Assembly (NCBI GenBank): GCA_040221175.1
Contig: JAVJVK010000013.1
Coordinates: 62,001 to 126,000 of the forward strand
Reading direction: 5' to 3'
Origin: Phycisphaerales bacterium
GTDB taxonomy: Bacteria; Planctomycetota; Phycisphaerae; Phycisphaerales; UBA1924
Length of the DNA: 64,000 nucleotides
Positions 14,924 to 32,055 of the stretch are shown here, in pieces. The notes beneath the pieces were generated by a model. It was not told the origin of the DNA. It did no database searches and saw only the letters and a program-made list of their open reading frames with translations. Numbering within the stretch: the first letter of the stretch is position 1; each line of letters starts with the position of its first letter. The translations under genes were made by a program, and so were the position numbers.

Positions 14924-14954
14924 CCCGTCCGTCGCTCGCGAGCCGGACTACCGC
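14917..14954. terminator. Inverted repeat spanning both convergent stop codons
   Basis: GCGGTAG (14917-14923) and CTACCGC (14948-14954) form 7-bp arms that contain the TAG stop of the phosphatase gene and the complementary CTA of the OppC-like gene's stop. No T-run follows on either side, so a bidirectional terminator role is only possible. Confidence 0.3.
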
Positions 14955-16522
14955 CGCCCGCGCTTGGGATCGAACGCCTCGCGCAGTCCCTCGCCCACGA
15001 AGTTCAGCGCCAGCAGCGTCGCGCCCAGCAGCAGGCACGGGAAGAGGATGAGCCACCACAGGCTCTCGTAGGGGTTCAGCTCGTTCAGCCCGTCGGCCGC
15101 CAGGTTGCCCCAGCTGGGCAGCGGGGGCTTCACACCGATGCCCAGGAAGCTCAGGAAGGACTCCTGGAGAATCGCCAGCGGGACCGTCAGCGTCGCGTAC
15201 ACAATGATCGGCCCCAGCAGGTTGGGCAAGAGGTGCACGAAGAAGATCCGCCGCGTGGGCGCGCCGGCCGAGCGGGCCGCCTCGATGTAGGGCATGCTCT
15301 TGAGGCTCAGCACCTGGCCGCGGATGACGCGCGCCATCGTCAGCCAGCTCACGCCGCCGATGGCCACCAGCAGCACGACCAGGTCCAGGAACAGCATCGT
15401 CGAGTCGCCAAGCTTCCGGGGCGGGCGGGCGCTCAGCGCCATCGCGTCCAGCACGGCGCCGTTCGAGAGCACGGGCGCGCCCTCGGGGTTGGCTTCGTCT
15501 GGATTGGTCTCGTCTGGAGCCGCCCCCGCGTCGGCCGCGGCCTGGACCACGCCGGCGACGGCGTCCTGCAGGCCGAGCCGATCCGCCAGTTGGTCCAGCG
15601 GCGAGCCGGCCTCGAACGGCTCGGCCCGCCACGTGCTGACGTCGCGCTCGCTGGCGTTCTGGCCCAGCACGTCCAGCTCGCGCGCATCGGTCCAGGCCGT
15701 GCGCGCCTTCTGCTGGTTGACGTACTCGTCGATCGCCGCGTCGCTGGCGACCGCCAGCAGCACGACCAGCAGGATGTACGGCAGGCCGAAGAGCACGTCG
15801 ACCACGCGCATCATCGCCGCGTCGGTCTTGCCGCCCGCGTAGCCCGAGATCGCGCCGTACAAGGTCCCGATGAACACGCTGATGAGGGCGGCGCTCAGGC
15901 CGATCCCAAGCGAGATCCCCCCGCCGGTCATCACGCGGTACAACAGGCTGCGCCCCAGCACGTCGGTGCCCAGGATCATCGACACGCGGTTGCCGTCGTA
16001 GACCCAGTGCTCGGCCATGGCGTCGGCCAGTTCCCCCTCGGTTGCCTGCCGGGCCTCGCGCTCGGTCACGCTGAATTCGGCCGCAACCTGGTCGACCGCC
16101 TCGGCCGGCACCAGCGCGTTGAGCTTGAGCGCACTCTCTTCGCCCACGGCCCACCACGGCGGCAATCGCCCGTACTCGGCGCTGCCCGCGTTGTACCGCG
16201 CCACGCTCGAGCCCTCGCTCACGCCAGGGTAACTCGGTGACGCCGGGTTGAGCGTCCAGAACAGGCCAAGCAGGCACACCAGCAGCGTGACGGCCAAGAA
16301 ACCCATGCCCAGCATGCCCGCCCACGAACGCGTGAGGGGGTTGTCACGCTCCACCGGTGGCGCCGCCATCGCGGGCACCGACTTCGCGTCGGCGTGCACG
16401 GGCGCGTTGGCGGCCTCGGTGATCTCGCCGGGCAGGTTCGGCGGGATCGCCTGCCCTCTCTCGGGAAGGGGCCCCGGGGGTGGGTCGAGATTCGGTCGGT
16501 CCTCGCCGGGCGTGTCGCGCAT
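14948..16522 (-). CDS. OppC/DppC-type ABC transporter permease (last gene of amidoligase operon)
   Basis: A 524-residue binding-protein-dependent transport permease. The first about 65 residues are a Pro-rich cytoplasmic extension. The first membrane helix is at about 70-90, and the permease core starts near residue 185 (GTDVLGRSLLYRVMTGGGIS). The EAA loop that contacts the ATPase is clear (YIEAARSAGAPTRRIFFVHL). About 100 extra hydrophilic residues are inserted inside the core (about 270-370), and an extra periplasmic segment follows helix 1, so it is far longer than OppC (about 300). No OppA, B, D or F gene is beside it. It lies 47 bases after the small gene at 16570-17013, on the same strand as the amidoligase genes. 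A peptide or amino-acid amide substrate is inferred from family and context. Confidence 0.85.
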   Translation of the reverse strand: MRDTPGEDRPNLDPPPGPLPERGQAIPPNLPGEITEAANAPVHADAKSVPAMAAPPVERDNPLTRSWAGMLGMGFLAVTLLVCLLGLFWTLNPASPSYPGVSEGSSVARYNAGSAEYGRLPPWWAVGEESALKLNALVPAEAVDQVAAEFSVTEREARQATEGELADAMAEHWVYDGNRVSMILGTDVLGRSLLYRVMTGGGISLGIGLSAALISVFIGTLYGAISGYAGGKTDAAMMRVVDVLFGLPYILLVVLLAVASDAAIDEYVNQQKARTAWTDARELDVLGQNASERDVSTWRAEPFEAGSPLDQLADRLGLQDAVAGVVQAAADAGAAPDETNPDEANPEGAPVLSNGAVLDAMALSARPPRKLGDSTMLFLDLVVLLVAIGGVSWLTMARVIRGQVLSLKSMPYIEAARSAGAPTRRIFFVHLLPNLLGPIIVYATLTVPLAILQESFLSFLGIGVKPPLPSWGNLAADGLNELNPYESLWWLILFPCLLLGATLLALNFVGEGLREAFDPKRGRR

Positions 16523-16569
16523 GGGCCGCTTCCCCCTTCACGCCCCGTACGCCAGTACGGGGCCGGGCC

Positions 16570-17013
16570 TCAGGCGTCGGCCTTGGGCGTAAAGCTCGCG
16601 CCGTCGAGCACGGCGAAGGTCACCATGTCGCCCACCTTGAAGTCGCTGGCGTGCTGGCGTTCGTCGGTCAGCGTGCAGTGGAACGGCACGCCCGCGTCGA
16701 CGATGATCGTGTCGGCCGCGTGCCCCACGATGCGCCCCTGCACCCGCCGCGGCCGGCCGATGACCGGCTCAACGTACAGGCCCCCGCTGGGCACCGGATC
16801 GACCCGACGCGCCCGGGCCTGGATCGTGCCGAAGACCTTGTCGCCCGGCTCGGCCTTCACCGGCGCCGTCGGCAGCAGGTGCAGGTCGTAGCTGGTGTTG
16901 GCAAAGCCAAGGCGGACGTGGGCCGGCCGGGTGGCCGTAGCGGCCACGGCCTCGCGAAACGTCGCGCGGGCAAGCCCGGGGGCGATCTTGGTGGTCGGGG
17001 CGGGGTGGATCAT
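16570..17013 (-). CDS. Small hypothetical protein in the amidoligase operon
   Basis: A 147-residue protein with no recognised family. It lacks a signal peptide and membrane helix. The sequence alternates short hydrophobic strands with charged turns (HVRLGFANTSYDLHLLPTA, DKVFGTIQARARRVDPVP, RRVQGRIVGHAADTIIVDAG, FKVGDMVTFAVLDGASF), which suggests a compact beta-barrel such as an OB-like fold. It starts 23 bases downstream of the amidohydrolase stop and ends 47 bases before the OppC-like gene, so it is probably part of the same transcript. A ligand-binding or structural role is possible; nothing in it points to catalysis. Confidence 0.65.
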   Translation of the reverse strand: MIHPAPTTKIAPGLARATFREAVAATATRPAHVRLGFANTSYDLHLLPTAPVKAEPGDKVFGTIQARARRVDPVPSGGLYVEPVIGRPRRVQGRIVGHAADTIIVDAGVPFHCTLTDERQHASDFKVGDMVTFAVLDGASFTPKADA

Positions 17014-17036
17014 GGCCCAGTCTACGCCCGGAACGC

Positions 17037-17792
17037 TCAGCCGATCGCCGGCTTGACGGAAGGGGCGAGCACCGCAGACAGCGCCCGAACCAGCACGTCG
17101 CCCACGTGCCGCCGGGCGTTCATGCCGGCGATCAGGCCCTGACGCACCTCAACCTCGGCGCCCGCGTAGTAGTCCCCGGGGAACTTCCCGCGCAGCCACG
17201 TCGTCAGCCCGTCGTCGGTGCCCTTGTACGGCTCGTTGAACGGCAGCCGCCACGCGGGCTCGAGCATCGCAAGCTCGGTGTTCCACGCCTGGCAGATCTC
17301 GGCCTCGCTTTCGCGATCCGGGTCGAACAGCAGCGAAACTTCCAGCTCCCGCACGCGGCCGTCGAGTTCGTCCGTGCATGAATGCACGCCCACGTGCAGC
17401 ACCCGCCGGCCCGCGCCAATGGCGTCGCCCACCACCCGTTCGACGCTGCCGCGGTGGCGCTCGTAATAGTCGCGTGTGATGATCGCCTTGGTCGCGTCAT
17501 CCAGCCCCTGCGTGTACCTGCTGAAGAGCGTGCCCGAGTCGGGCGAGCGGTTGGGCTCCACGAGCAATCGTGTGAACGTGCACGCCACCAGCGGCCAGCT
17601 CGTGACGCACGCCATCCGCTGGGCCACGCCCAGGGCGCCGATGTCCCACCCGCGGTGGCTGGCCAGCACGTCGTCGGCCCCCTTGAACAGGTATGCATAT
17701 GCCGGGGGTACGTCGTGCCCGCCATGCTCGCAGGACAGGACCACCACCTCGGGCGCCCACGTGGGTTCGTCACGCACGGAACAGCGTCCCAT
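17037..17792 (-). CDS. N-formylglutamate amidohydrolase family protein
   Basis: A 251-residue member of the N-formylglutamate amidohydrolase (PF05013) superfamily. These are metal-dependent amidases related to carboxypeptidases. Family motifs are VVLSCEHGGHDVPPAY near the N-terminus, SHRGWDIGALGVAQ, RLLVEPNRSPDSGTLF, and HVGVHSCTDELDGRVRELEV with the later Asp and Glu of LLFDPDRESEAEI. In operons with an RLAN ATP-grasp ligase and a GCS2 ligase, this enzyme is thought to hydrolyse or trim the amide product. The ATG at 17792 overlaps the upstream GCS2 gene by 23 bases; a GTG at 17777 is an equally possible start. Confidence 0.85.
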   Translation of the reverse strand: MGRCSVRDEPTWAPEVVVLSCEHGGHDVPPAYAYLFKGADDVLASHRGWDIGALGVAQRMACVTSWPLVACTFTRLLVEPNRSPDSGTLFSRYTQGLDDATKAIITRDYYERHRGSVERVVGDAIGAGRRVLHVGVHSCTDELDGRVRELEVSLLFDPDRESEAEICQAWNTELAMLEPAWRLPFNEPYKGTDDGLTTWLRGKFPGDYYAGAEVEVRQGLIAGMNARRHVGDVLVRALSAVLAPSVKPAIG

Positions 17793-19035
17793 CCCGGAGA
17801 CAGTCGGCCAGTTCGCGGTACACCTCACGCAGCTCGTTTCGCGTCGGATATCGCTTGATCGCCCCGCCGATGCGTTTGGACAGGGTGCCGGCGTTGAGCA
17901 GGCGGCCCATCACCGCCGTGTCCTCGTGGCCTTCGGGCATCACCTGCTCGGCCAGCCGCTGCCACAGGTCCTTGGCCCACACCAGCGAGCCGCCGACGCC
18001 GTGGGCGTCCAGCAGCGATCGCTCGCGGATGCGCGTGCGCTCGGCCGTGCGGATGGTCTCCAGCAGCACGTCGTACAGCGCGTCGGTCGAGACCTTCTTC
18101 TGCTGTTCGTAGGGCATCCACCGCTCTTCCACGTGCGCCCGCACCAGTTCGCTCACCAGCCGAACGACGGCCAAATCGGCCGCGGGGCACTCCTGGATGT
18201 CCAGCAATCGCAGCTCGATGGCGCCGCGGTCGAAGCGCGCCATCGCGCCGCGCGCATTGGCGAACTCGTGCCGCAGCACGCCGGAGGGGTCCAGCGGCGC
18301 GAGCTGGTCGTACAGCTTTCCCAGGATGTCGCGCTCATAGCCCTCACGCGTGTACACCGGCTCGGGCACAACCTTGGCGGCCATGAGCGGCACGCGCTTG
18401 GAGTTGTTGCGGTAGTACTCCAGCCGCTGGTCGGCCACGGGGCTCCACCGGCCTTCGAGGATGGGCGAACTGGCCGCGATCGCAGGCACCAGTGGCAGCA
18501 CGAGCCGCAGCGCCGCATGCAAGCGCCCGAACTCCTCGTCGTTGCCGAAGGGCAGGTTCAGGTGCGTGCTCTGCAGGTTGCTCCAGCCGTGCCCCTGGCA
18601 GTTGAAGATGGCGTCGTAGGCCTTGTAGACCTCGGTGTACTCATGGGGCCACAGCCTGGTGTCTTTCAGTGGATCCATCCAGGGGTGCGCGCCCGTGGGC
18701 AGCAGCCGGCAGCCCATTTGTGCCAGCCTTTCGTTTGCGATGCCAACGTGCCGCTGAAAATGCCCTGCCAGACCATCGAGCGACGGTGCGGGCTTCTGCG
18801 TCTTCAGCTCCAGCACGTGCAGCACCAGTTCGTTCGACCAGCTCACCGGGCCGTCGGGCCCGTCGGGCTCGGCTTCGCCCACGCTCTGGTCGCCGTCGTT
18901 CATCATGGCAAAGAGCTCGTCGGCCACCGGCCGCACGTCGAGCGTCTGGGCATCGACGATCATGTACTCCAGTTCGACGCCGTACGCGCCGAACAGGCCA
19001 ATCGAGTTCCGCCACGCTTGGACCGCGCTACTCAT
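17770..19035 (-). CDS. GCS2-family carboxylate-amine (glutamate-cysteine-like) ligase
   Basis: A 421-residue ligase of the glutamate-cysteine ligase type 2 superfamily (glutamine-synthetase-like fold). It opens with GVELEYMIVD, which provides early metal-binding Glu residues, and continues with AHPWMDPLKDTRLWPHEYTE (shown here in part), GWSNLQSTHLNLPFG, LLPLVPAIAASSPILEGRWS in pieces, and the conserved IELRLLDIQECPAADLAV. The family activates a carboxylate as acyl phosphate and joins it to an amine. In this genomic setting it is expected to make an amide bond in a small metabolite or on a protein tail rather than glutathione. Its ATG overlaps the ATP-grasp stop by four bases (19032-19035). 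Confidence 0.9.
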   Translation of the reverse strand: MSSAVQAWRNSIGLFGAYGVELEYMIVDAQTLDVRPVADELFAMMNDGDQSVGEAEPDGPDGPVSWSNELVLHVLELKTQKPAPSLDGLAGHFQRHVGIANERLAQMGCRLLPTGAHPWMDPLKDTRLWPHEYTEVYKAYDAIFNCQGHGWSNLQSTHLNLPFGNDEEFGRLHAALRLVLPLVPAIAASSPILEGRWSPVADQRLEYYRNNSKRVPLMAAKVVPEPVYTREGYERDILGKLYDQLAPLDPSGVLRHEFANARGAMARFDRGAIELRLLDIQECPAADLAVVRLVSELVRAHVEERWMPYEQQKKVSTDALYDVLLETIRTAERTRIRERSLLDAHGVGGSLVWAKDLWQRLAEQVMPEGHEDTAVMGRLLNAGTLSKRIGGAIKRYPTRNELREVYRELADCLRDGTLFRA

Positions 19036-20486
19036 CGGGCTTCGAGCTCCCAGAAGAAGTGCTCCATGATCCGGCGATACAGCTCCATGCCCAGCACCTG
19101 ATCCTCCACGCCCGAATCAATGTTCGGGTTGTCGTTCACCTCGATCACGATCGGCTTGCCGTTCACTTCCTTCAGGTCCACGCCATACAGCCCGTTGCCC
19201 ATGAGCGCCGCAGCCTTCACCGCCAGCTTCACCACGTCGTTGGGCGCCTCTTCCACGGGCATGGTCTGCCAGTCGCCATACTTGGCGTTCGACTTGCCCC
19301 TGGTCTTGTGGTTGACGATCTGCCAGTGCCCGGGCGCCATTCCGTATCGGCACGCAAACAACGGCCGCCCCGCCAGCACGCCGATGCGCCAGTCGAAGTC
19401 CGTGGGCAGATACTCCTGCGCCACGATCAGGTCGGTGTGCTCGAACTGCGCATCAAGGACGGCATCGAGGCCTTCCTCGCCGTCGACGCGAGACACGCCG
19501 GCCGAGAATGAACTGTCCGGCTGCTTCAGCACGCACGGAAAACCCAGCGACCGAAGTCCCTCCACCGCGTTGTCGCGCGTCAACACAAGCGTGCGGGGCG
19601 CCGCCAGCTTGTGCCTGCCGAGCGTCTCGGCCAGGAACACCTTGTTCGTGCACCGCACGATCGACTGCGGATCGTCGATGACCACCATGCCCTCGGCCGC
19701 TGCCCGCCGGCTCATGCGATACGTGTAGTGGTCCACGTACGTCGTGTCGCGGATGAACAGCGCGTCGTATTCGGCGATCCGACCCGCGGCCGACTTGTCG
19801 ATCAGATCGCAGCGGATGCCCATCTTCTCGCCCGCCTCGATGAATCGCGAGAGCGCCCTCTTGTCGCTGGGCGGCATCGGATCGTCGGGATCGTGCAGGA
19901 TGGCAAGGTCGAATCGAGCCGCCGGAGACTCCTTGGCCTTCCGCGGGGCTCGACGCAGGTACCGCTCGGCTTGCTGCACCACGAACGAACGATGGCTTTC
20001 GGGAACGTCCGCCAGGCCGATCACGCGGACCGATGCAAGCCGCCAGTGCCCATTGTGCTCGAAGCGTGCCCGCAGCAACGGCGCCGGAAAAGCGTTGAAC
20101 AACGCCAGCGCCAGCGACTCGTGACCCTCGGCCATGTTGTGGCCAAAGTACACGCTCAGCTCGAAGGCTTCGCTCTTGATGCGCCGCAGGCTCTTCTGGA
20201 TCAACTCGTCAAGGTCGTCGCCCGCAAGTCTGACCACCGCAGCGAGCCGGATGTCCTGAATGGCCGCAACCGACGGCAGGCACCGATGCCCGCGTGCCTC
20301 GGCCAGCAGCGAGACGTAATAGCCCGACGCCTGGTAGCGAAGGCTCCGGCACAGGTTGAACACCTTGCGCCCGCGACCGTGCGCCAGTTGCGGGTCGGTG
20401 AGATACCGGTACGCGGAAACAGTCTCCGCGCCGGGCACGTCCATCGGGAAGCGCTTGGGCGAGTCAACGATCAACAAGGGTTTCAT
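19032..20486 (-). CDS. RimK-like ATP-grasp ligase with N-terminal RLAN domain
   Basis: A 484-residue protein. The first about 190 residues match the RLAN (RimK-like ATP-grasp N-terminal) domain (PLLIVDSPKRFPMDVPGAE, LCRSLRYQASGYYVSLLAEA, QDIR). The ATP-grasp fold follows: YDALFIRDTTYVDHYTYRMS, DDPQSIVRCTNKVFLAETL, the Lys of FPCVLKQPDSSFSAGVSRV, and the metal-binding terminus VIEVNDNPNIDSGVED. Relatives of RimK ligate amino acids, often glutamate, to carboxylates. The gene is translationally coupled to both neighbours (four-base overlaps at 20483-20486 and 19032-19035). The substrate is unknown. Confidence 0.92.
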   Translation of the reverse strand: MKPLLIVDSPKRFPMDVPGAETVSAYRYLTDPQLAHGRGRKVFNLCRSLRYQASGYYVSLLAEARGHRCLPSVAAIQDIRLAAVVRLAGDDLDELIQKSLRRIKSEAFELSVYFGHNMAEGHESLALALFNAFPAPLLRARFEHNGHWRLASVRVIGLADVPESHRSFVVQQAERYLRRAPRKAKESPAARFDLAILHDPDDPMPPSDKRALSRFIEAGEKMGIRCDLIDKSAAGRIAEYDALFIRDTTYVDHYTYRMSRRAAAEGMVVIDDPQSIVRCTNKVFLAETLGRHKLAAPRTLVLTRDNAVEGLRSLGFPCVLKQPDSSFSAGVSRVDGEEGLDAVLDAQFEHTDLIVAQEYLPTDFDWRIGVLAGRPLFACRYGMAPGHWQIVNHKTRGKSNAKYGDWQTMPVEEAPNDVVKLAVKAAALMGNGLYGVDLKEVNGKPIVIEVNDNPNIDSGVEDQVLGMELYRRIMEHFFWELEAR

Positions 20487-21295
20487 GACGTTTGGCCGTT
20501 GGCCTCCGAGACGGTTTTCTTCGGTTCGATGACGAGCAAGTTGGCGTCGTACGTCAGCACGCCCAGCATGATGGCCGGCACCAGGCGGGCAAGCGGAATC
20601 TCATAGCCCTGGACCTCGAAGCCCGGGTTGTCGGCAAGCGGGTCGGCCACGCGCACCATTCGAGCGGTTTCGTCGTAGCCATGGAGCACCACGAAGTGCC
20701 CCGATGGCTCGCCGCGAACGTCATCGTAATCGTCATTGGGCCCATACTCGCGCGCACACTTGTACAGGTACGTCGCACTGAGCCCGGTCAACACCGGTCG
20801 GCCAGAACTAATGAACCCCGACACCAACTCGCTCGTCAGGTCGTTGAACAGGATCTGACCGCCAAGCCGAACGAACTCCTGGTAGCTTTCGGTCGCCACC
20901 GGAAAGCGCATGTCTTCGTAGCTCTTGGCGGCCACCTGGGCCGCAAGCTTCTCGCCGAGCAGCCGCGGGTCCGCTTGGCCTAGAGCGTCGAACCACGTGG
21001 GATCGAACATCTGAAGATTGAACGTGTACAGCGAGGCCGAGTATCCCTGGGCCAGCGCGTGCACGCCCAGCATGACCGCCAGCGTGCCGCGACCGGCCCC
21101 GGCGTTGTTCAACGAACGCACCGACTCGATCACCGAGCCAAGCGGCCGCTGGTCGCCCCAATACCGATACACCGCGTGCAGGCAGGTCGGCCCGCACGTT
21201 TCGTCGTCCGGTTGGGGAAGCATGTCGATGTCCAGCTGCCGCGAGTGTGCGGGCGCGCCAGATTCGGGTTGTTCCACGGATGCACCGATCCCCAC
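20483..21295 (-). CDS. C39-like cysteine peptidase (first gene of amidoligase operon)
   Basis: A protein of up to 270 residues with a papain-like C39 fold. Catalytic features visible are the Gln/Cys motif LPQPDDETCGPTCLHAVYRY, the His of SGHFVVLHGYDE, and the Asp of VRVADPLADNP. The frame opens at a GTG (21295) with a poorly conserved leader of about 20 residues; a later GTG or the ATG just before LPQPDDETCG may be the true start. No signal peptide is seen, so it probably acts in the cytoplasm. It could cleave a ribosomal peptide or the amide made by the two ligases encoded downstream. The ATP-grasp gene overlaps it by four bases. Confidence 0.85.
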   Translation of the reverse strand: MGIGASVEQPESGAPAHSRQLDIDMLPQPDDETCGPTCLHAVYRYWGDQRPLGSVIESVRSLNNAGAGRGTLAVMLGVHALAQGYSASLYTFNLQMFDPTWFDALGQADPRLLGEKLAAQVAAKSYEDMRFPVATESYQEFVRLGGQILFNDLTSELVSGFISSGRPVLTGLSATYLYKCAREYGPNDDYDDVRGEPSGHFVVLHGYDETARMVRVADPLADNPGFEVQGYEIPLARLVPAIMLGVLTYDANLLVIEPKKTVSEANGQTS

Positions 21296-21409: not shown

Positions 21410-22558
21410 ATGCCAGATACGCAACCCAATCCCTCGCCCCAAGGCGGCTCGGTCGACATCGCCGGCTGGGCCTGGACCATGCTCGCCTTCGACATCGGCT
21501 TCCAGGTCGACCTGGACAGGGCCGAGCCCTGGGTGCAGGAAGCCACCCGCCGCCGCGTCGTCCGCGCACGCCGTCCGGCCCCGGTCTGGTTCGACTACAG
21601 CCCGCCGCCGTTGATGCTCGTGCTCTCGGGAAACCAGATTCCCCTGGCCGATGGCCCGTCGGCGCCGATGACCGATGCCAGCGTGGAACTGCTGCTCTAC
21701 GACTTCGGCGCCGCCCTGTTGACCTACCGGACCCCGCTGCCCACCTCGCTCGACCAGCTCCCGGCCCTGGCCTGCGCCCTGCACGACAACGCGGCTCTCG
21801 AGGCCGATGCCAGGGCCCATCTTGAGCGCATCATCGAGGCCATCGGCTCGGCCGTCGTCCGCCCCAAGCTCCACGAGGCCGTCGAGGACTACACCGTCCT
21901 TTCCATCGAGCAGTGGCCCGCCGACGCCAACCCCCAGGAATTGGCCAGGGACTTCCAGGCAACGCTGGCCATGGCGTTGGAGGCCGAGCGTGAACCCGTC
22001 TCGCACGAACAGGCCGAGCGAACGCTCTCGGGCCGCATCGCCTACACGGACAACGACCTGGCCATCATCGACTGGAACGCCGCGGTGCTCTTCGACAAGG
22101 AGCCCCAGGACGTCATCGCCGTCCTCCAGCACGCCAACGTCGAGCTGCTCGAGCTCCGCGTGCTCGACCAGGAGCTCGACGCCATCCTCGACCACGCCGA
22201 CGAAACCCTCAACGACCTCATCAAGCGTCGCATCTGGCCGGGCTTTGCCACCGGCCGCATCCTGGGCCGCGTCGCCGCCGCCCACACCGACGCCGCCGTC
22301 ATGTTCGAGGGCGTCAACAACGCCATCAAGCTCCTGGGCAACCAGTACCTGGCCCGCCTCTACCGCGTGGCCGCAAGCAGGCTCGACCTGCCCGCCTGGC
22401 ACGCCAGCGTCCGCCGCAAGCTCGAGGCCACCGACAACCTCTACGACAAGATGGAAGGCGTCGCCGGCACGCGCCGTCTCGAAACCCTTGAGTGGGTCAT
22501 CATCGTGCTCATCCTCGTCTCGATCGTCCTGCCCTTCACGCCCATCAATCCATACTGA
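21410..22558 (+). CDS. RMND1/DUF155-like membrane-anchored protein
   Basis: A 382-residue protein divergent from the amidoligase operon (114 bases between starts). The N-terminal 120 residues are mixed alpha/beta. The C-terminal half is helical with regular hydrophobic spacing (LFDKEPQDVIAVLQHANVEL, LELRVLDQELDAIL, KLEATDNLYDKMEGVAG). It ends in one transmembrane helix (LEWVIIVLILVSIVLPFTP, about 358-376). This helical bundle plus terminal anchor resembles the RMND1/Sif2 (DUF155) family, which is poorly characterised in bacteria. The match is by pattern only. Whether it works with the operon opposite is not known, though the shared promoter region is suggestive. Confidence 0.7.
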   Translation: MPDTQPNPSPQGGSVDIAGWAWTMLAFDIGFQVDLDRAEPWVQEATRRRVVRARRPAPVWFDYSPPPLMLVLSGNQIPLADGPSAPMTDASVELLLYDFGAALLTYRTPLPTSLDQLPALACALHDNAALEADARAHLERIIEAIGSAVVRPKLHEAVEDYTVLSIEQWPADANPQELARDFQATLAMALEAEREPVSHEQAERTLSGRIAYTDNDLAIIDWNAAVLFDKEPQDVIAVLQHANVELLELRVLDQELDAILDHADETLNDLIKRRIWPGFATGRILGRVAAAHTDAAVMFEGVNNAIKLLGNQYLARLYRVAASRLDLPAWHASVRRKLEATDNLYDKMEGVAGTRRLETLEWVIIVLILVSIVLPFTPINPY

Positions 22559-23043: not shown

Positions 23044-23730
23044 TTAGCCGCAGCCCACCGCAAATTCGTTCTGGAACGCCAGGAAATCAAACAGCGTCAG
23101 CGATCCATCGCCATCGAAGTCCGCGATCGGGTCGCCCATGTCGAAAGCGTTCTGGAACGCAAGGAAGTCGAAGATCGTCAGGCTGCCATCGCCGTCGATG
23201 TCCGCCCGGCAGTCGATCTCGACGCGCTCGATGAACGCCGTGCCCTCGGTAAACGTGAGCGAGCCCACGAGGAAGCTCGGCGAGAGCGTGACGTCGCGAA
23301 TGTTGAAGAACGCCACGTCGTCGGCGCCGATGCCCGCGTCGAACGTCGCCGCGAAACGCACGGTGATGCCCGCCAGCGTCTCCTCGCCCATGAACGTCTC
23401 GCCGAGCACCTGAAACGGATGCGTGCCGGCGAGGTTGTCGACCTCCCCGGTCAGGAAGTCCGAAGACCCGGGCGAGAGCTGCTCGAGTGCGTCGGCCAGA
23501 GGCGTGGGATCGGGAAACAGCGAGCCCAGCACGACGCCGCTGCCCTGCACCATGCCCGAAACCTCGTAGCGGTACCGCGTGGCCGGAGTGATCGTGTCCG
23601 GAGCACTGCTCCGCGACACGTCGCGCCCGTCCTCAAGCCGGACGCCTGCCAGGTCGATCGAGACCGTCTCTTGGGCCACCGCCACACATCCGAGGCCAAG
23701 CACCGCCGCCATGCAGATCCGCGTATCCAT
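23044..23730 (-). CDS. Secreted protein with C-terminal GC-type dockerin pair
   Basis: A 228-residue exported protein. The signal peptide MDTRICMAAVLGLGCVAVAQ is followed by a beta-rich domain of about 150 residues (PATRYRYEVSGMVQGSGVVL, ITVRFAATFDAGIG). The C-terminus holds two dockerin repeats, [20 protein letters not shown] and ADFDGDGSLTLFDFLAFQNE, ending GCG. A Cys (IDCRAD) lies just before the first repeat. The start at 23730 is supported by GAGGAGGGGGC just upstream; the longer open frame to 23811 is rejected. Role unknown; probably a surface-attached component. Confidence 0.83.
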   Translation of the reverse strand: MDTRICMAAVLGLGCVAVAQETVSIDLAGVRLEDGRDVSRSSAPDTITPATRYRYEVSGMVQGSGVVLGSLFPDPTPLADALEQLSPGSSDFLTGEVDNLAGTHPFQVLGETFMGEETLAGITVRFAATFDAGIGADDVAFFNIRDVTLSPSFLVGSLTFTEGTAFIERVEIDCRADIDGDGSLTIFDFLAFQNAFDMGDPIADFDGDGSLTLFDFLAFQNEFAVGCG

Positions 23731-23833
23731 CTCGCCCCCTCCTCTAGATAAGTAGGCCTGAACCAATAGCCTACCCCAAACCGGCCGTTCCGCCAACGCT
23801 TCTTGCACCAAACCGGCTCCATACCCTCGCCCC

Positions 23834-24868: not shown

Positions 24869-25095
24869 TCGCGACCCATCGGGTTCCCCCTGTCGGGCTC
24901 GTACGCCGCATTCGCGGCGTGTGGGCCCGTGTTCTGTTTGAGGGTCGGCTAGGCCGCGCAAGTGCCGCGATGGGCCTCGGGCTTCATAATCCCTGCACGC
25001 TACACTAGCGATGGGTGCTGGTGGCTCTTTATCACTGCGCCCACTCGAGAGCCGAACACGCCTGCTGGGGTCAAAGACCCGCCGAGGTTTGGATT

Positions 25096-27027
25096 ATGCA
25101 GAACAATTTCGGTCTGAAGGACCTGATCGTCATCGCGCTCATCCTGGGGCTGTTCGTCAGCGTCTGGGTGGCCATCTATCAGGATGACCGCCGCTGGGAC
25201 AAGACCGTCGAGGCCAACGCCAAACTCGAAGCCCTCGAGAAGCAGATCGTCCGGCTGGAGACCGAGATCACCCGCCGCCCGGTCGTCGTCGCCGGCCAGG
25301 GCGCTCCCATGCCCGGCGGCCAACCGGTGACCACCGATACCGCTCCGGCCAGTACCGACTGGGCCCGGGAAGGCGTCGAGGTCACCGTCAGCGAGCCCTG
25401 GACCTTCACCAGCGACCCGCGCGACGACGAAGGCTTCACCCCCGGGGGCGAGTTCACCGAGATCTACGAGGGCCAGCCGCCCAAGCTCACGCCGTACACC
25501 TACGCCGACGTCTACGGCCGTCGCGTGGTGGACCTGGTCTGCGAGAGCCTGGGCTGGTATGACCCCAAGACGCTGAAGATGCGCGGCTTGCTGGCCGAGG
25601 CATGGCAGTACCCCGAGGACGGCACGTGGCTGCGCGTCAAGATTCGCGACGAGGCCCGCTACAGCGACGGCTCGCCCGTGCTGGCCGAAGACGTCCGCTG
25701 GACGTATCAGGATCTGCTCTTCAACATGCAGATCGAGGCCGAACGCTTCCGCAGCGTGTACAACTCGATCGAAGACATCGAGGTCATCGGCGATCCCGAG
25801 ACCAGTCGCGTGGTCGAGTTTACCTTCAAGACGCCCCGGTTCGATAACCTCGACCAGGCGATGGGCTTCAAGATCCTGCCCAAGCACATCTATCAGGAAT
25901 GGATCGCCAGTCCCACGCGGTATAACCAGAGCACGGCCTTGACGATCGGCTCGGGTCCGTTCCGCTTCGCGACGGTCTCGCCCGATTCGCAGTGGAGCCC
26001 GCCCAGCGACATCGTTCTGGTGCGCAACGAGCAGTACTGGGGCCCCAAGCCCGCCCTGGACAGCTACCGCATCACGGTCATCAGCGATTACACCACCAAG
26101 CTCATCGCCTACAACAGCGGCCGCGGCGACATGATGCGTCCCAACGCCCAGCAGTTCGTCGAGCAGCGTGCCGATCAGCGATTCCTGGAGCAGCACGATC
26201 CCCGCATCTGGTACAACATGCGCGGTGGCTACTCCTTCATCGCCTGGCAGTGCGGCCCACGCAACGGCCAGAAGCTGACCCCCTTCCACGATGCCCGCGT
26301 CCGCAAGGCCATGACGATGATGATCGACCGCGATCGCATCCGTCGTGACATCTCCAAGAACCTCGTGCGTCCGGCCACGGGCCCGTTCCTCAGCTCCACG
26401 CCGCAGTCGAATCCCGAGATCGAGCCGTGGCCGCACGACCCCGACGCCGGGCTCGCGCTCCTGGCCGAGGCCGGATGGGAGGACCGCGACGGCGACGGCA
26501 TGCTCGAGGACGAAGATGGCAACCCCTTCACCTTCGAGTTCACCTTCTCCAACGGGTCCGACTCGACGCTCCAGATGGCCAACTTCATGAAGGCCGACTT
26601 TGCGCGTTACGGCATCGACATGCAGCTGCGCACCATCGACTGGTCGGTGCTCGTTGACATCCTCAACCGCCGCGACTTCGACGCCATCACCTTCGCGTGG
26701 TCGGCCTCGGCGCCCGAGAGCGACCCCTACCAGATCTGGCACTCGGACAACATCGAGAACCAGGGCGACAACTTCATCCAGTGGAACAGCCCCGAGGCCG
26801 ACACGCTCATCGAGAAGGGACGTCAGACGCTGGACTTCGATGAACGCATGAAGGTCTGGCACGAGCTGCACTCGGTCTATCACGAAGAGCAGCCGTACAC
26901 GTTCATGAACGAGATCCCCTGGATTCGCTTCACGACCAAGCGGTCGGGCAACATCCAGGAGTACAACTCGGGCCTGCAGTACGCCGAGTTCTGGGTCGGC
27001 CGCGAGAGCCAGCCCACGCAGAACTGA
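25096..27027 (+). CDS. Oligopeptide ABC transporter substrate-binding protein, membrane-anchored
   Basis: A 643-residue family 5 (OppA/DppA) solute-binding protein, first gene of a peptide importer operon. Instead of a cleaved signal it has an N-terminal membrane anchor (about residues 8-28, LIVIALILGLFVSVWVAI) followed by a short coiled coil (KTVEANAKLEALEKQIVRL). Family regions include RGLLAEAWQYPEDGTWLRVK, the DGSPVLAEDVRWTYQD motif, and TALTIGSGPFRF. The ligand-pocket C-terminal lobe contains DFDAITFAWSASAPESDPYQ. The ATG at 25096 is chosen because GAGG lies a few bases before it; the extended frame to 25015 has no ribosome site. Confidence 0.92.
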   Translation: MQNNFGLKDLIVIALILGLFVSVWVAIYQDDRRWDKTVEANAKLEALEKQIVRLETEITRRPVVVAGQGAPMPGGQPVTTDTAPASTDWAREGVEVTVSEPWTFTSDPRDDEGFTPGGEFTEIYEGQPPKLTPYTYADVYGRRVVDLVCESLGWYDPKTLKMRGLLAEAWQYPEDGTWLRVKIRDEARYSDGSPVLAEDVRWTYQDLLFNMQIEAERFRSVYNSIEDIEVIGDPETSRVVEFTFKTPRFDNLDQAMGFKILPKHIYQEWIASPTRYNQSTALTIGSGPFRFATVSPDSQWSPPSDIVLVRNEQYWGPKPALDSYRITVISDYTTKLIAYNSGRGDMMRPNAQQFVEQRADQRFLEQHDPRIWYNMRGGYSFIAWQCGPRNGQKLTPFHDARVRKAMTMMIDRDRIRRDISKNLVRPATGPFLSSTPQSNPEIEPWPHDPDAGLALLAEAGWEDRDGDGMLEDEDGNPFTFEFTFSNGSDSTLQMANFMKADFARYGIDMQLRTIDWSVLVDILNRRDFDAITFAWSASAPESDPYQIWHSDNIENQGDNFIQWNSPEADTLIEKGRQTLDFDERMKVWHELHSVYHEEQPYTFMNEIPWIRFTTKRSGNIQEYNSGLQYAEFWVGRESQPTQN

Positions 27028-27096
27028 CGTCGCCCGAGGCGTTCGCGCCCCGGCTCGCGCCGCGATCCATTTCCTCGTTCACGAGCGCCACCGCGT

Positions 27097-28632
27097 ATGA
27101 CCACTTACATCATCCGACGCCTGTTCCTCATGATCCCCACGGTGATCGGCATGACCCTGCTGATCTTCCTTCTCGTGGCCATGAGCCCCGGCGGCGTCGG
27201 CGCCGCCCTTCAGGTTTCGGGCGGCGGACAGATGGACTCCGGTAGCGTCGCCCAGCAGCGGGCATACCTCGAAGATCGATACGGGCTCGATGCGCCGTAT
27301 CTCGTCCAATACGTGCGGTGGCTTGGCCGGGTCAGCCCGATCAAGTTCGGCGCCCGCGACCAGTTCACGCCGAGCGGCGAGCGATTCTCCGAGCCCAAGA
27401 AGATCGATGCGCCGCCCCTGTGGCAGTGGTTTGCCGAAGACTTGCCCGAAGCCGAGCCCGCCGCAGAGGTCGTCCCTCCGGACGATGCCGAGGCCCGCGC
27501 CCAGATCTATCGCCGAGCGGCAGGCAACTACGCCCAGGTGCGTGCGGCGTACCTGGGATCGCGCACGCGGTTCGAGATCGCCATGGGCGATCTGGCCAAG
27601 GCCATCGACCACCCCGAAGCCGTCAAGGATCGCGGACAGATCAAGCCCGGACCCGCAAAGCGCATCGGTAAGAGCGCGTTCGCGTCGGCCGACGAAGCGC
27701 TCTGGGCAACGGCCGAGGCTCGCGCCGCCGACATGCTGCGCGACTACGAGCTCCTGTTGAACGCGACGGCGCGCTCGCAGGCGGTGTTCGACGCCAAGCT
27801 GTTCCGGCAGGCCGGCGTGCCGATCATCCCCGGCACCGTGTCGCTTGCCGCTCCCGACCTGGGCATGAGCTTCTCGCGTTCGCGCCCCGTATCGACGCTG
27901 ATCTGGGAGGCGCTCCCGGTCACGCTGATGCTGAACCTGATCGCGGTGCCGATCATCTATTTCGTTGCCATTCCTTCGGGCGTGCTGGCCGCCAGCCGGC
28001 AGGGCTCGCTGGTCGACGTGGGCCTGGGAGCCTTCTACGTGGCCCTGTGGTCGATCCCGGTCGTGTGGGCGGGCGTGCTGGCGGTGGGCTTTCTGGCAAG
28101 CAAGGACTGGCTGGGCTGGTTCCCCGTCACCGGGCTGCACTCGCCCGAGGCCGAGTCGATGACCATGCTGCCCCAGGTGGTCGAAGGGCGCTGGCAGCGG
28201 GGCTACATCCTCGACACGCTGTGGCACCTGGTGCTGCCCGTGGCGTGCCTGGTGTACACCGGCTTTGCGATCTTGAGCAAGCAGACTCGCGCAGCGATGC
28301 TGGAGAACTTCAACGCCGACTACGTGCGCACGGCCAAGGCCAAGGGCGTCTCGCACAAGGACGTGGTCTTCCGCCACGTGTTCCGCAACAGCTTGCTTCC
28401 GATCATCACGATGTTCGTCTCGATCTTCCCGGCCATGCTGGGCGGTTCGGTCGTCATCGAGCGCATCTTCAGCGTGCCGGGCATGGGCAGCCTGATCATC
28501 GACGCCATCGGGCTGCGTGATCGCGAGTTGCTCATGGCCAACGCCCTGATCGTCGGCCTGGTGAACATGCTGGCGCTGCTGCTTGCCGACATCCTGTATG
28601 CCCTTGCAGACCCACGGATCTCCTACGACTGA
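27097..28632 (+). CDS. Oligopeptide ABC transporter permease, OppB type, enlarged
   Basis: A 511-residue permease. The usual OppB start is present (MTTYIIRRLFLMIPTVIGMT with the first helix). After YGLDAPYLVQYVRWLGRV there is an insertion of roughly 190 mostly hydrophilic, helical residues (about 80-265) before the standard DLGMSFSRSRPVSTLIWEAL. Normal OppB is about 310 residues. The rest is typical: five further helices and the EAA loop (YVRTAKAKGVSHKDVVFRHV). The stop overlaps the next gene's ATG by one base (TGATG at 28630-28634). Confidence 0.93.
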   Translation: MTTYIIRRLFLMIPTVIGMTLLIFLLVAMSPGGVGAALQVSGGGQMDSGSVAQQRAYLEDRYGLDAPYLVQYVRWLGRVSPIKFGARDQFTPSGERFSEPKKIDAPPLWQWFAEDLPEAEPAAEVVPPDDAEARAQIYRRAAGNYAQVRAAYLGSRTRFEIAMGDLAKAIDHPEAVKDRGQIKPGPAKRIGKSAFASADEALWATAEARAADMLRDYELLLNATARSQAVFDAKLFRQAGVPIIPGTVSLAAPDLGMSFSRSRPVSTLIWEALPVTLMLNLIAVPIIYFVAIPSGVLAASRQGSLVDVGLGAFYVALWSIPVVWAGVLAVGFLASKDWLGWFPVTGLHSPEAESMTMLPQVVEGRWQRGYILDTLWHLVLPVACLVYTGFAILSKQTRAAMLENFNADYVRTAKAKGVSHKDVVFRHVFRNSLLPIITMFVSIFPAMLGGSVVIERIFSVPGMGSLIIDAIGLRDRELLMANALIVGLVNMLALLLADILYALADPRISYD

Positions 28633-30851
28633 TGAAGAACGAACCGACCACATCGAGCGAGGCCGGCGGCGTGCCCGGGCCCATGGACGATCCGGGCAAG
28701 GACATGCGCGCCCCCGGCGACTTCGAGGGCGAGCAGGAGCTGACCTCGGTCACCGGCGTGCACCTGATGCAGGGCATCGGGCATCGGCCGGCCGAAGGCT
28801 TCTGGACCGAGGCCTGGAAGCAGGTCTTCAAGCGTCCGGGCGCGGTCATCGGCATCGCATGGGTGGCGATGATCGCATTCTTCGCCGTCTTTGCGCCGCT
28901 GGTGGCCAATGGACATCCGATCCTGATGGTCGCCCAGCCGGACGTGAACCCGCTGGCCAAGCTACTGGGTGATCTCGGCCCTGCCATCACCAGCTTCGAT
29001 GGCGTCCGCTTGATCCTGTTCACCCTGATCTGGTCGGCCGCATGGATACTCGCGCCTCGTCGATTGCCCATGCCTGCGCTGGCCGGTCTTGCCTTGCTGG
29101 TGACGGGCGTGTTTGCGTTGCGGGTGTTCGCCCAGTTCTTCATCGGCAAGAGCGAGGAAGAACTCGGCTCGGCGCTCTATGGCTTCGCGCAGTTCCTGCT
29201 GGGCCGACCCCAGGACGGGCAAGCCACCAGCTTCGCCTTCCAGATCATCGTGGACCTTGCGGCCACTGGTGGTCTCGTCTGGGCGGCCGGCGCGTTCGAC
29301 CTTTCGCGGCGGGCGCGCATCGCCACCACGCCGGTGCTCTGGCTCGTTGCGATCGGTTCGCTCGTTGGCATCGCCGCGGGCATCGACGAGCAGGCGCCGG
29401 TGCGGAGCCCCTTGCTGCGCTACCTCACGGTGGTCGATCTCACGCTGCTGGTTGGTGCGATGGTGGGGCTGGTGTTGCTCGTGCCTCGTTGGTGGGGCTC
29501 GCGTGGCGATCGCGCGAAGGTGCTGCTGACCGTTTCGCTGCAGGCCGGGCTGACCATGCTGGTGCACTCGATCGTGAGCGGGCAGGCGGCCAACCGCGAC
29601 GCGGCCCCGTGGCTGCGTGCCTTCGAGCGCCAGCCGTACTTCGAGACCATCGCCTCGCTCATCATCGCCGCGGTCATCGGCGGGCTCTTCATCGTGGCCC
29701 ACCCCCTGAACAAGCTGCGCAACCGTGCGGGCGTCGCCTTGCTGGTGGGGCTCGTGATGTTCGGGCTGATGGCGGTCCGCTGGTCCACGCCGCTGCCCAA
29801 CTTCCGCTACGTCGCCCAGGAGACCCAGGGCCGCATCAGCGCGATCTACACGATCATCCCGTGGTCGCCCAACCAGGGCGGGACGGCCGTCGACCTCCTG
29901 CCGCCGGGCAGCACCGTGTATTCACAGGTGCTCAAGGGTCTGGAAGACGTCGCGCTCAGCGATCGATCGCGCAGCACGGGCACGCCGGTGGAAGAGATGC
30001 CGCTGGACGCCGAAGTGCTCGCTGCCATCGAGGACCAACTCGGCTACGCGGCCGACACGCTGCCGACCGATCCCGATGTGGCCTTCGCCGTCGTGGCCGA
30101 GGCAGCGGCGGCAGATCCCGATCTGGACGTGGCGGGCGCGATCGATCTGCTCGAGTCGCTGCCCGGGCCAGCGTACGTGCTCGGCACCGATTCGGGCGGG
30201 CAGGACATGCTCAGCCAGTTGCTTCACGCCTGCCGGCTGTCGATTTCTATCGGGCTGGTCTCGACGGCCATCGCGGTGGTCATCGGCGTGACGGTGGGCG
30301 CGCTCATGGGCTACTTCGGCGGATGGGTCGACATGCTGCTCTACCGCGTGGTGGAGGTCTTCATGGCCATCCCGCTGCTGTTCCTGCTGATCGTCGCCGC
30401 CGCCGTGCTGCCCCGCAATACCTACGTCATGATGGCCATCATCGGGTGCGTCACGTGGACGGGCAGCGCACGCTTCATTCGCGCCGAGTTCTACAAGCTT
30501 CGAAATCAGGACTTCGTCCAGTCGGCCCGCTCGGTCGGCCTGCCGCTTCGCAGCGTGCTGTTCAAGCACATGCTGCCCAATGGCGTAACGCCCGTGCTGG
30601 TGGATGCATCATTCGCCATCGCGGCGGCAATCCTTGCCGAGGCCGTGCTGAGCTACCTGGGCCTGGGGCCTGCAAACCAGGCAAGCTGGGGCCGACTGCT
30701 GAGCGACGCGAATAACCAGGTTGGCAAGTTCATGTGGTGGCTGGCCATCTTCCCCGGTTTTGCCATCTTCCTGACCGTGCTGAGCTACAACCTCATCGGC
30801 GAGGCGCTCCGCGACGCCATCGATCCCAAGCTCAAGAAGGCCCGCGTGTGA
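28632..30851 (+). CDS. Oligopeptide ABC transporter permease, OppC type, with extra membrane domain
   Basis: A 739-residue permease, more than twice the usual OppC length. The N-terminus has the OppC_N-like helix ([20 protein letters not shown]). About 300 residues with roughly eight extra hydrophobic segments follow (for example [20 protein letters not shown]), then a soluble part of about 130 residues. The permease core begins at [20 protein letters not shown] (near residue 510) and includes the EAA loop ([20 protein letters not shown]). It is coupled to the OppB gene by a one-base overlap. The extra helices may be a fused module unique to this lineage. Confidence 0.92.
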
Positions 30852-30912
30852 TCACGGTGCCGACGCCACACCCCCGGACGAAGAACGAGCCAGACGACTA
30901 CGGAGTCCCGAC

Positions 30913-32055
30913 TTGACCGACGCGACCACACTCAAGAGCACCAAGGCCGGCGACGTTGATCCCAACGCCAAGCCACTGATCCAGGTGCGTGATCTTGCCG
31001 TCTCGTTCGACAATGGGAATGGTCCGCGCATCCAGGCCGTCGACGGGGTGCGCATGACCATCTACCCGCGCCAGACGCTCGCCGTGGTGGGAGAGAGCGG
31101 CTGCGGAAAGAGCGTGACGGCGATGAGTTCCATGCAACTCGTGCCCCGTCCGCCCGGCCGCTTCGATCGCGGTCAGATCCAGTTCCGAACCGAGGACGGC
31201 AACACCATCGACCTGCTCCGCCAGAGCGAAAAGGAGATGCGTGAGATCCGCGGCAACGACATCGCCATGATCTTCCAGGAGCCCATGACCAGCCTCAACC
31301 CGGTGTACACCGTGGGCGATCAGATCATGGAAGCCATCCTGTTACACCAGAGCGTCAGCGCGAGCAAGGCCCGTGACATCGCCCTGGAAGCCATGCGATC
31401 GGTGGGCATCCCCGACGTCGAGAAGCGCATCAAGGCCTATCCCCACCAGTTCAGTGGTGGCATGCGTCAGCGCGTGATGATCGCGATGGCCCTGGCCTGT
31501 CGTCCGCGACTGTTGCTGGCCGACGAGCCGACCACCGCGTTGGACGTGACCATCCAGGCTCAGATCCTCGAGTTGCTCTCGTCGCTCAAGGACGAGATGG
31601 ACATGGCCGTCATGCTCATCACCCACGACCTGGGCGTGGTGGCCGAGAACGCCGACGTGGTATGCGTCATGTACGCCGGGCGCGTAGTCGAGTACGGCAC
31701 CGTGTTCGACGTCTTCGACAACCCCATGCACCCCTACACGCGCGGGCTGCTGGCGAGCATTCCCAAGATCGGCAGCCGGCTCGATCGCCTGGTGACCATC
31801 AAGGAGGTCGTCGAAGACGAGGCCCAGTTCAAGCGCCTGCCCGGAGCCGACCAGGGCGTGCGCCCGTGGTGGCCCTGGCACAAGCCGCCGGCAGACCTTG
31901 CCGCCAAGGACGAACCCGCCGGCGATTACTACCTCCAGGAAGTCGAGAAGGGCCACTGGGTCGGCGTGTGGCGGACGCGTGCCGTCAGCGACCACGAGAG
32001 CCGCCCGCCGGACCTGAACTATCGCGCTAAGCGTGAGGCCGTTGCCAGCGTTTGA
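30913..32055 (+). CDS. Oligopeptide ABC transporter ATP-binding protein, OppD/DppD type
   Basis: A 380-residue ATPase. Walker A is GESGCGKS, the Q-loop region is [17 protein letters not shown], the signature is [15 protein letters not shown], and Walker B is [12 protein letters not shown] with a following ITHDLGV His switch. The oligopeptide-type C-terminal extension ([13 protein letters not shown]) is present, plus about 60 further residues ([20 protein letters not shown]). It starts at TTG (30913), with CGGAG seven bases upstream. No OppF partner follows, so either this ATPase forms a homodimer or a second ATPase lies elsewhere. Confidence 0.93.

Follow-up and report, generated by a model that had tools for sequence, protein, structure and literature searches.

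A recurring four-gene amidoligase block in a Phycisphaerales bacterium and the fusion of its two ligases in some planctomycetes

A stretch of 64,000 nucleotides from a Phycisphaerales bacterium (assembly GCA_040221175.1, contig JAVJVK010000013.1, positions 62,001 to 126,000 of the forward strand; the whole stretch is referred to as the window) was analysed for a block of four overlapping minus-strand genes, encoding a C39-like peptidase, a RimK-like ATP-grasp ligase with an RLAN domain, a GCS2-type ligase and an N-formylglutamate-amidohydrolase-like (FGase) hydrolase. The same genes recur in the same order in distant bacteria, and their active-site residues are conserved; the two ligases form one open reading frame in five genomes of the phylum. 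The four enzymes could well constitute a unit of small peptide or amide metabolism whose working resembles the synthesis and turnover of glutathione, a reading that is put forward with some reserve. A small gene and an OppC-like permease gene downstream, which the initial annotation had included in the system, were judged to lie outside it.

Layout and recurrence of the four-gene block

The block is located in an assembly of 3.44 Mb in 20 contigs and consists of the following genes, given in the direction of reading:

20483..21295, minus strand: C39-like papain-fold cysteine peptidase, 270 amino acids, first gene of the block (Pfam Peptidase_C39_2, 6.7e-11)
19032..20486, minus strand: RLAN domain plus RimK-like ATP-grasp amide ligase, 484 amino acids (Pfam RLAN, 6e-46, and RimK, 1.6e-8, both over cut-off)
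17770..19035, minus strand: GCS2-type carboxylate-amine ligase, 421 amino acids (Pfam GCS2, 2e-26)
17037..17828, minus strand: FGase-like hydrolase (Pfam FGase, 1.7e-15)

The hydrolase starts either at a GTG at 17828, giving 263 amino acids, or at an ATG at 17792, giving 251. Neighbouring genes overlap by 4 nt (C39/RLAN ligase), 4 nt (RLAN ligase/GCS2) and 23 nt (GCS2/FGase, counted from the ATG; 59 nt from the GTG), by which the overlaps of 4, 4 and about 23 bases given in the initial annotation were reproduced. All six open reading frames named there were recovered at the same coordinates, and their families were backed by Pfam, the small gene being without a family over cut-off. Comparison of the window with the sister genome G005 gave dN/dS values of 0.06–0.29 for the four block genes, which indicates that these are real, constrained genes under purifying selection. 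They are probably co-transcribed. Promoter and terminator scans gave no signal exceeding that of shuffled sequence, an Rfam scan of the window no element over the gathering score, and the PADLOC families of anti-phage defence no match among the six proteins at E 0.01.

Recurrence close to the window was assessed in 61 genomes, its own and 60 relatives. Orthologues of the RLAN ligase were called at E < 1e-100, since a cut of E 0.001 lets in 42 of the 61 through remote ATP-grasp paralogues, and were present in 27 genomes. Long-form examination covered 26 of these, all but G055, with G001 divided between two contigs. Beside the ligase of the 26 stood C39 (23 genomes), GCS2 (24) and FGase (18); at one of the eight loci without FGase the block is cut by a contig end. 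For distant bacteria, 586 candidates from named genomes were confirmed and the best 80 of them taken, a sample that is biased towards window-like ligases and that shares at least L135 and L137 with the order-level set; all counts for distant loci below refer to these best 80. C39 was found in 63 of the 80 (a stricter scripted count of 60 of 79 is too low owing to over-long reading-frame starts, as in L147 and L180). Where enough downstream DNA was available, GCS2 was present at 63 of 72 loci and FGase at 32 of 59. The commonest junction between C39 and the RLAN ligase was a 4-nt overlap (16 of 60). By the submitters' titles, the distant loci carry 17 phylum-level labels. One of them, L135 (WYBR01000028.1), is titled Vicinamibacteraceae (Acidobacteriota) and holds a ligase identical to that of G047 from the window's order; it is probably a misnamed assembly.

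The search for conserved neighbourhoods that had been proposed with the initial annotation thus returned the RLAN-GCS2 pair with C39 and FGase both across the order and in distant bacteria, the order C39-RLAN-GCS2-FGase being common to the two. Recurrence of the same order in the 80 named loci, under many phylum labels, indicates that the arrangement is more than chance. Pairwise distances of the four block proteins were correlated (r 0.45–0.72), and for each of the six pairs none of 500 shuffles reached as high a value. The ligase tree mixes phyla, its 22 Planctomycetota-labelled rows needing 10 changes, at least 3 of which are forced by starred branches; this fits, without proving, horizontal transfer. 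At the 17 distant loci lacking C39 and the 26 lacking FGase (L171 excluded), inspection of the next reading frame by eye revealed no common replacement gene.

Active sites, predicted folds and fusion of the ligases

Residue conservation was counted over rows passing length and score filters, namely 86 for C39, 92 for GCS2 and 49 for FGase, the FGase profile having left out rows L042, L045 and L053. In the C39 alignment Gln28 and Cys34 were each conserved in 85 of 86 homologues, and His200 and Asp218 in all 86; from the C39 fold, we take Cys34, His200 and Asp218 to be the catalytic residues. The positions checked in the FGase and in the ligases, apart from the GhExE signature of GCS2, are likewise presumed to belong to the active sites. 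They comprise K321, D437, E449 and N453 of the ATP-grasp part, invariant in 22 of 22 sequences, and E34, H35, H58, D62, R87, N93, H145 and H149 of the FGase, conserved in 49 of 49 homologues. The GhExE signature itself, as it is given in passages of PMC2588565, corresponds to G19, E21 and E23, each of which is kept by 90 of 92 homologues. A lack of ligase active-site residues on alignment, which the initial annotation had named as a ground for refutation, was not observed.

By sequence, the relatives of the ATP-grasp part in the Protein Data Bank (PDB) included the S6-modifying RimK, among the best, and LysX; the nearest solved structure to the FGase was 2odf (Atu2144, E 2.1e-36), and the GCS2 profile gave no match to PDB sequences at 0.001. 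A papain fold was predicted for the peptidase (pLDDT 84.6). Its model matched two structures at the same Z of 15.4, the phytochelatin synthase Alr0975, 2bu3, which forms a glutathione acyl-enzyme (rmsd 3.2, 167 aligned), and the double-glycine leader C39 peptidase 6mpz (rmsd 2.0, 134 aligned). The phytochelatin synthase family PF05023 gave no match to the window's C39 protein at E 0.1; at E 0.001 it matched one of the 25 members of set A4, and the C39 homologue of G012 scored 19 bits, below the gathering score of 24.9. Pfam placed no ABC transporter domain on the stand-alone protein of 270 amino acids, and clustering of the neighbours of the distant loci yielded no recurrent ABC exporter family beside C39.

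Neither ligase passed the cut-off of a curated subfamily. The RLAN ligase scored 27.9 bits against glutathione synthetase TIGR01380 (cut-off 299.05), 67.5 bits against the RimK subfamily TIGR00768 (cut-off 143.4) and 29 bits against NF007764 (RimK; cut-off 331), and the GCS2 ligase 43.4 bits against the YbdK/GshA-type family TIGR02050 (cut-off 176.4).

Fused ligases were sought in a phylum spread of 392 genomes, 80 of which matched the ligase at E 1e-60. Twelve stretches, picked from these matches for long frames or low identity, were examined: five held RLAN, ATP-grasp and GCS2 domains (Pfam) in one open frame of 990–1028 amino acids, two had separate block genes (L228, L229), and five had the RLAN ligase alone (L230–L234). 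The five fusions, L223 (G205), L224 (G232), L225 (G180), L226 (G174) and L227 (G284), span four genera, G205 and G232 being congeneric, and are a lower bound, since further long-frame matches exist among the 80. In each of them the RLAN-ATP-grasp part precedes GCS2. C39 precedes the fusion in L225 and L226 and FGase follows it in L226, while L227 starts at a contig end. Of the 11 positions checked in the RLAN half, 10 equal those of the window in all five, the exception being D324, which is Glu in L227. Of the 16 checked in the GCS2 half, 14 do so; K78 is replaced by Arg in L226, and R177, conserved in 92 of 92 stand-alone sequences, by Ala in all five. As far as sequence can tell, the fusion is good evidence that both ligases act in one pathway. 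It calls to mind GshF, the fused glutathione enzyme.

Together, the GCS2 ligase, the ATP-grasp ligase and the papain-fold peptidase give the block its likeness to glutathione and phytochelatin metabolism, on which the proposed function is modelled. One ligase, most likely GCS2, would activate the side-chain carboxylate of a glutamate-type substrate with ATP and couple it to an amine to form a gamma-linked product, to which the RLAN-ATP-grasp ligase would add a further residue. The papain-fold enzyme, similar to C39 peptidases and phytochelatin synthase, would cut this product or transfer a residue of it, and the FGase-like amidohydrolase would remove an acyl or terminal amide group, whereby the pool would be trimmed or recycled. 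The product would be a small molecule rather than a protein, and the unit would serve to make it rather than to break it down. The initial annotation had two ligases building a peptide-like amide, two hydrolases trimming it and a permease moving it; of this, the grouping of the two ligases, the peptidase and the amidohydrolase as a recurring unit is supported, with kept residues and fused ligases, and the permease had to be given up. The likeness to glutathione concerns how the unit would work and not its identity, because the ligases pass no curated glutathione, YbdK or RimK cut-off. A bolder form of this reading, distinctly unlikely in our estimate, is that the block makes a novel gamma-peptide of small size and wide use, analogous to glutathione, by ligases that are fused in the manner of GshF in some planctomycetes, and recycles it by its own phytochelatin-synthase-like peptidase and amidohydrolase.

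Several observations weigh against a glutathione-like unit. With the ligases so far under the glutathione synthetase, RimK and YbdK cut-offs, family membership would not give their substrates, and the fused GCS2 may differ in substrate, because R177 is replaced by Ala in all five fusions. The C39 fold is as near to leader peptidases as to phytochelatin synthase, and Foldseek alone ranks the leader-peptidase transporter PCAT1 first. A canonical glutathione synthetase over cut-off was present in none of the 27 genomes with the RLAN ligase and in 3 of the 34 others, an absence that is not informative because 31 of the 34 ligase-less genomes also lack it (p 0.25). Correlated distances can stem from transfer as a unit or from shared ancestry rather than from function. 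The block is also incomplete in many places. Of the 59 distant loci that allow a judgement, 27 have no FGase, the least constant member, directly after GCS2, among them L171, where it follows 1.5 kb further on; C39 is missing in 17 of 80. In the fetched flanks of L050, L055 and L230–L234 the RLAN ligase stood without any of the three partners, and the loci of Azospirillum, Tistrella, Pseudomonas and Aeromonas showed neither GCS2 nor C39 nor FGase in theirs. More distant ligases thus look different in setting, and the RLAN-only loci L230–L234, L050 and L055 possibly reflect another use.

Genes adjacent to the block

Two further minus-strand genes follow the block, the first 23 nt after the FGase gene and the second another 47 nt on, as the initial annotation had reported. 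They are listed here with the oligopeptide transport (Opp) operon of the window and the gene up382, which lies on the other side of the block:

16570..17013, minus strand: small gene, 147 amino acids, no Pfam family over cut-off, judged outside the system
14948..16522, minus strand: OppC-like permease, 524 amino acids (Pfam BPD_transp_1, PF00528, 6.6e-26), judged outside the system
25015-27027, plus strand: solute-binding protein of the Opp operon (Pfam SBP_bac_5)
27097-28632, plus strand: permease of the Opp operon, 511 amino acids
28632-30851, plus strand: second permease of the Opp operon, 739 amino acids (Pfam BPD_transp_1 and OppC_N across the two permeases)
30913-32055, plus strand: ATPase of the Opp operon (Pfam ABC_tran with oligo_HPY)
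21410..22558, plus strand: up382, divergent protein with a hydrophobic C-terminal stretch, recurring beside the block, possible loose partner

Homologues of the small gene and of the OppC gene (the latter at E 1e-30) were each found in 58 of the 61 relatives and showed no association with the RLAN ligase, present in 27 of 61. In G002, G003 and G004, members of the window's genus without the ligase, the two genes are still neighbours, and in G002 (L211) genes for a solute-binding protein, a permease, a second OppC-like permease and an ATPase come next on that strand. The counterparts of these Opp genes in the window lie at 25,015–32,055 on the plus strand, 8.5 kb from OppC. Because OppC leads into an Opp operon in G002 that has its counterpart in the window, the neighbouring OppC gene is best read, from this gene order, as a displaced piece of that peptide-transport operon. 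The amidoligase block stands upstream of the pair in four of seven genus members seen; downstream of the block and on its strand, the pair occurs in 4 of 26 order-level genomes, all of one genus. The distant loci held the small gene in 0 of 80 and OppC in 1 of 80, on the other strand. Among the order-level loci outside the genus, the only copy of either gene near a block is a small-gene homologue in L054, encoded on the strand opposite to FGase at a distance of about 0.1 kb. Both genes were rejected as members of the system on these grounds: they occur in 58 of 61 relatives each, adjoin one another without the ligase and, outside the genus, do not lie downstream of the block. The small gene and the 'private' permease of the initial annotation are present with or without the ligase and head an ordinary Opp operon in G002; both fail by that annotation's own test, absence from homologous clusters. 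The recurring unit includes no dedicated transporter, and removing the permease and the small gene from it averts a wrong transport hypothesis.

Up382 was found in 21 of the 27 relatives with the RLAN ligase and in 11 of the 34 without it (p 0.0007, uncorrected for relatedness), five of the 21 belonging to one genus and four to another. It stands beside the block in two orientations, either divergent or, in a single other genus, upstream and in the block's own direction. No Pfam family was assigned to more than 1 of 22 members; its structure model is weak (pLDDT 61.2), and searches against the PDB gave no profile match at E 0.1 (best 0.51) and no fold match at E 0.001. A suspected membership in DUF155/RMND1 was not supported, there being no PF02582 match in the window's own genome and no shared family. 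Two genomes without an RLAN orthologue carry up382 next to single block genes. In G017 (L212, 7686-9187) its neighbour matches FGase in the C-terminal part alone (residues 179–255 of 263) and appears to be what is left of a former block; in G012 (L215, 8959-10891) it adjoins a C39 gene, on a stretch without a GCS2 match.

When reading frames of at least 60 amino acids flanking the distant loci were clustered, no family occurred in more than 5 of the 80. In 5 of 107 loci the block has as its immediate neighbour a gene of one subfamily of the major facilitator superfamily (MFS), after GCS2 in L130 and L160, after FGase in L049 and before C39 in L138 and L140; in a sixth case, L050, such a gene is about 5 kb away. 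Pfam MFS_1 was assigned to the L049 protein. At E 1e-15 this gene was not found in the window's genome and was present in 19 of 61 relatives, 11 of 27 with the ligase and 8 of 34 without (p 0.17). It was accordingly rejected as the true exporter, lacking association with the ligase and being absent from the window's own genome, and is an occasional partner at most.

Proteins that look secreted and carry ends of the type DIDGDGSLT, presumably dockerin-like, are encoded at 23044-23811 of the window, at L209 9665-9835 and at L210 12188-12391, near the small gene in the sister genomes; Pfam gave no match for the window protein. In four Nevskiaceae-type loci a GNAT acetyltransferase gene directly follows the RLAN ligase in place of GCS2, with Pfam assignment for two of the genes:

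L162: GNAT gene
L175, 9464-9919: GNAT gene
L197, 9464-9937: GNAT gene
L204, 9470-9928: GNAT gene

In passages of PMC10318531, Iyer et al. 2009 is cited on DUF3335 peptidases that are often fused to acetyltransferases.

Alternative functions and relation to known systems

Four other explanations were weighed against a glutathione-like unit. In the first, the block serves protein tagging: the RLAN ligase would attach amino acids to a protein in the way that RimK modifies ribosomal protein S6, the GCS2 ligase would act like the Pup ligase PafA, and the C39 peptidase and FGase would remove the tag. The S6-modifying RimK among the PDB relatives of the ATP-grasp part, the kinship of PafA with GCS2 stated in passages of PMC2588565 and the pairing of ligase with peptidase, which suits an add-and-remove cycle, lend this some appeal. 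It is nevertheless unlikely in view of the 67.5 bits of the RLAN ligase against a RimK subfamily cut-off of 143.4 and of the neighbour clustering, in which no tag- or target-like gene recurred among reading frames of at least 60 amino acids, a length that a short tag could escape.

Utilisation of amines or amino acids appears quite improbable. Here GCS2 would glutamylate an amine or amino acid, much like gamma-glutamylation routes, and the FGase-like hydrolase and the peptidase would release the carbon skeleton and glutamate. The fusion of the two ligases suits stepwise building better than such a breakdown, and no neighbour family, catabolic or other, exceeds 5 of the 80 distant loci. An aminotransferase-like gene (named by eye) within 7 kb of 4 of the 80 loci, three of one genus, and an MFS transporter gene at 4 of the 80 offer weak catabolic support at best, the former shifting the balance towards catabolism by the slightest amount. 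On the other side, GCS2 is a carboxylate-amine ligase family, the FGase owes its name to the release of glutamate from N-formylglutamate, and a patchy presence in 27 of 61 relatives is in keeping with an accessory role in catabolism.

In a third alternative the block would mature a ribosomal peptide, with cross-links made by the ATP-grasp ligase and the leader cut off by C39, on the model of graspetide clusters; according to passages of PMC8939145, ATP-grasp enzymes share such loci with C39 peptidases and ABC transporters. The tie of the leader peptidase 6mpz for the top fold match fits this; the C39 enzyme has no ABC transporter domain, and no precursor gene recurred at the distant loci among reading frames of 60 amino acids or more. 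We also know of no graspetide ligase with an RLAN domain or a GCS2 partner, and the explanation is held to be highly unlikely. A six-gene system, with the small gene and the OppC-like permease in the operon and the latter moving the product, is largely refuted and hardly tenable, since the short gaps of 23 and 47 nt and an arrangement kept in all four ligase-bearing genus members are outweighed by the adjacency of the two genes in three ligase-less sister genomes, their unassociated presence in 58 of 61 relatives each, their absence downstream of the block outside the genus and the lead of OppC into the Opp operon of G002.

The proposed unit of small peptide or amide metabolism has relatives among known and predicted systems. 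It shows the features of an RLAN-GCS2 amidoligase neighbourhood, with an RLAN ATP-grasp ligase, an adjacent GCS2 ligase bearing GhExE, and a linked peptidase and amidohydrolase with intact residues. Iyer et al. 2009 is said to be the origin of the RLAN name and of the predictions of such neighbourhoods, and reportedly described an RLAN-bearing RimK-type ligase, a GCS2-type ligase, a papain-like peptidase and an FGase-like hydrolase as a functional unit. We know of no product of a two-ligase unit that has its own hydrolases and keeps the same order under many phylum labels, and literature searches found no study, biochemical or other, of the C39-RLAN-GCS2-FGase quartet. In Legionella adelaidensis (NZ_LR134436.1) a trio is annotated as RimK family, glutamate-cysteine ligase family and N-formylglutamate amidohydrolase, which like the window has the order RLAN-GCS2-FGase and overlapping ends; the record begins inside the RLAN frame, where an upstream C39 gene would not be visible, and the trio is without functional annotation. 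The designation of the block as an undescribed system in the initial annotation is therefore too strong, the trio being already annotated in a public record and the type having reportedly been predicted in 2009. The block belongs to a kind that is already known though uncharacterised, to which the fused form of the ligases and the narrowing of the gene set are useful additions; as a single natural protein for expression and assay, the fused ligases make the old prediction directly testable.

Among characterised systems, the RimK S6-glutamate ligase has the ATP-grasp domain in common with the RLAN ligase of the block, which differs from it by the N-terminal RLAN domain, by the GCS2, C39 and FGase partners and by a score below the subfamily cut-off. 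The Opp/Dpp peptide ABC transporter, home of the adjacent OppC gene, is separate from the amidoligase unit. Phytochelatin synthase is a papain-fold enzyme that the C39 model of the block resembles, no more closely than it does the C39 peptidase 6mpz. Glutathione synthesis, by GshA and GshB or by the fused GshF, likewise employs two ATP-dependent ligases, one of the GS fold and one of the ATP-grasp fold, that are sometimes fused; the block differs from it in that its ligases lie far below the cut-offs of the glutathione enzymes, its fusions have the ATP-grasp part before GCS2, and an FGase-like hydrolase is added.

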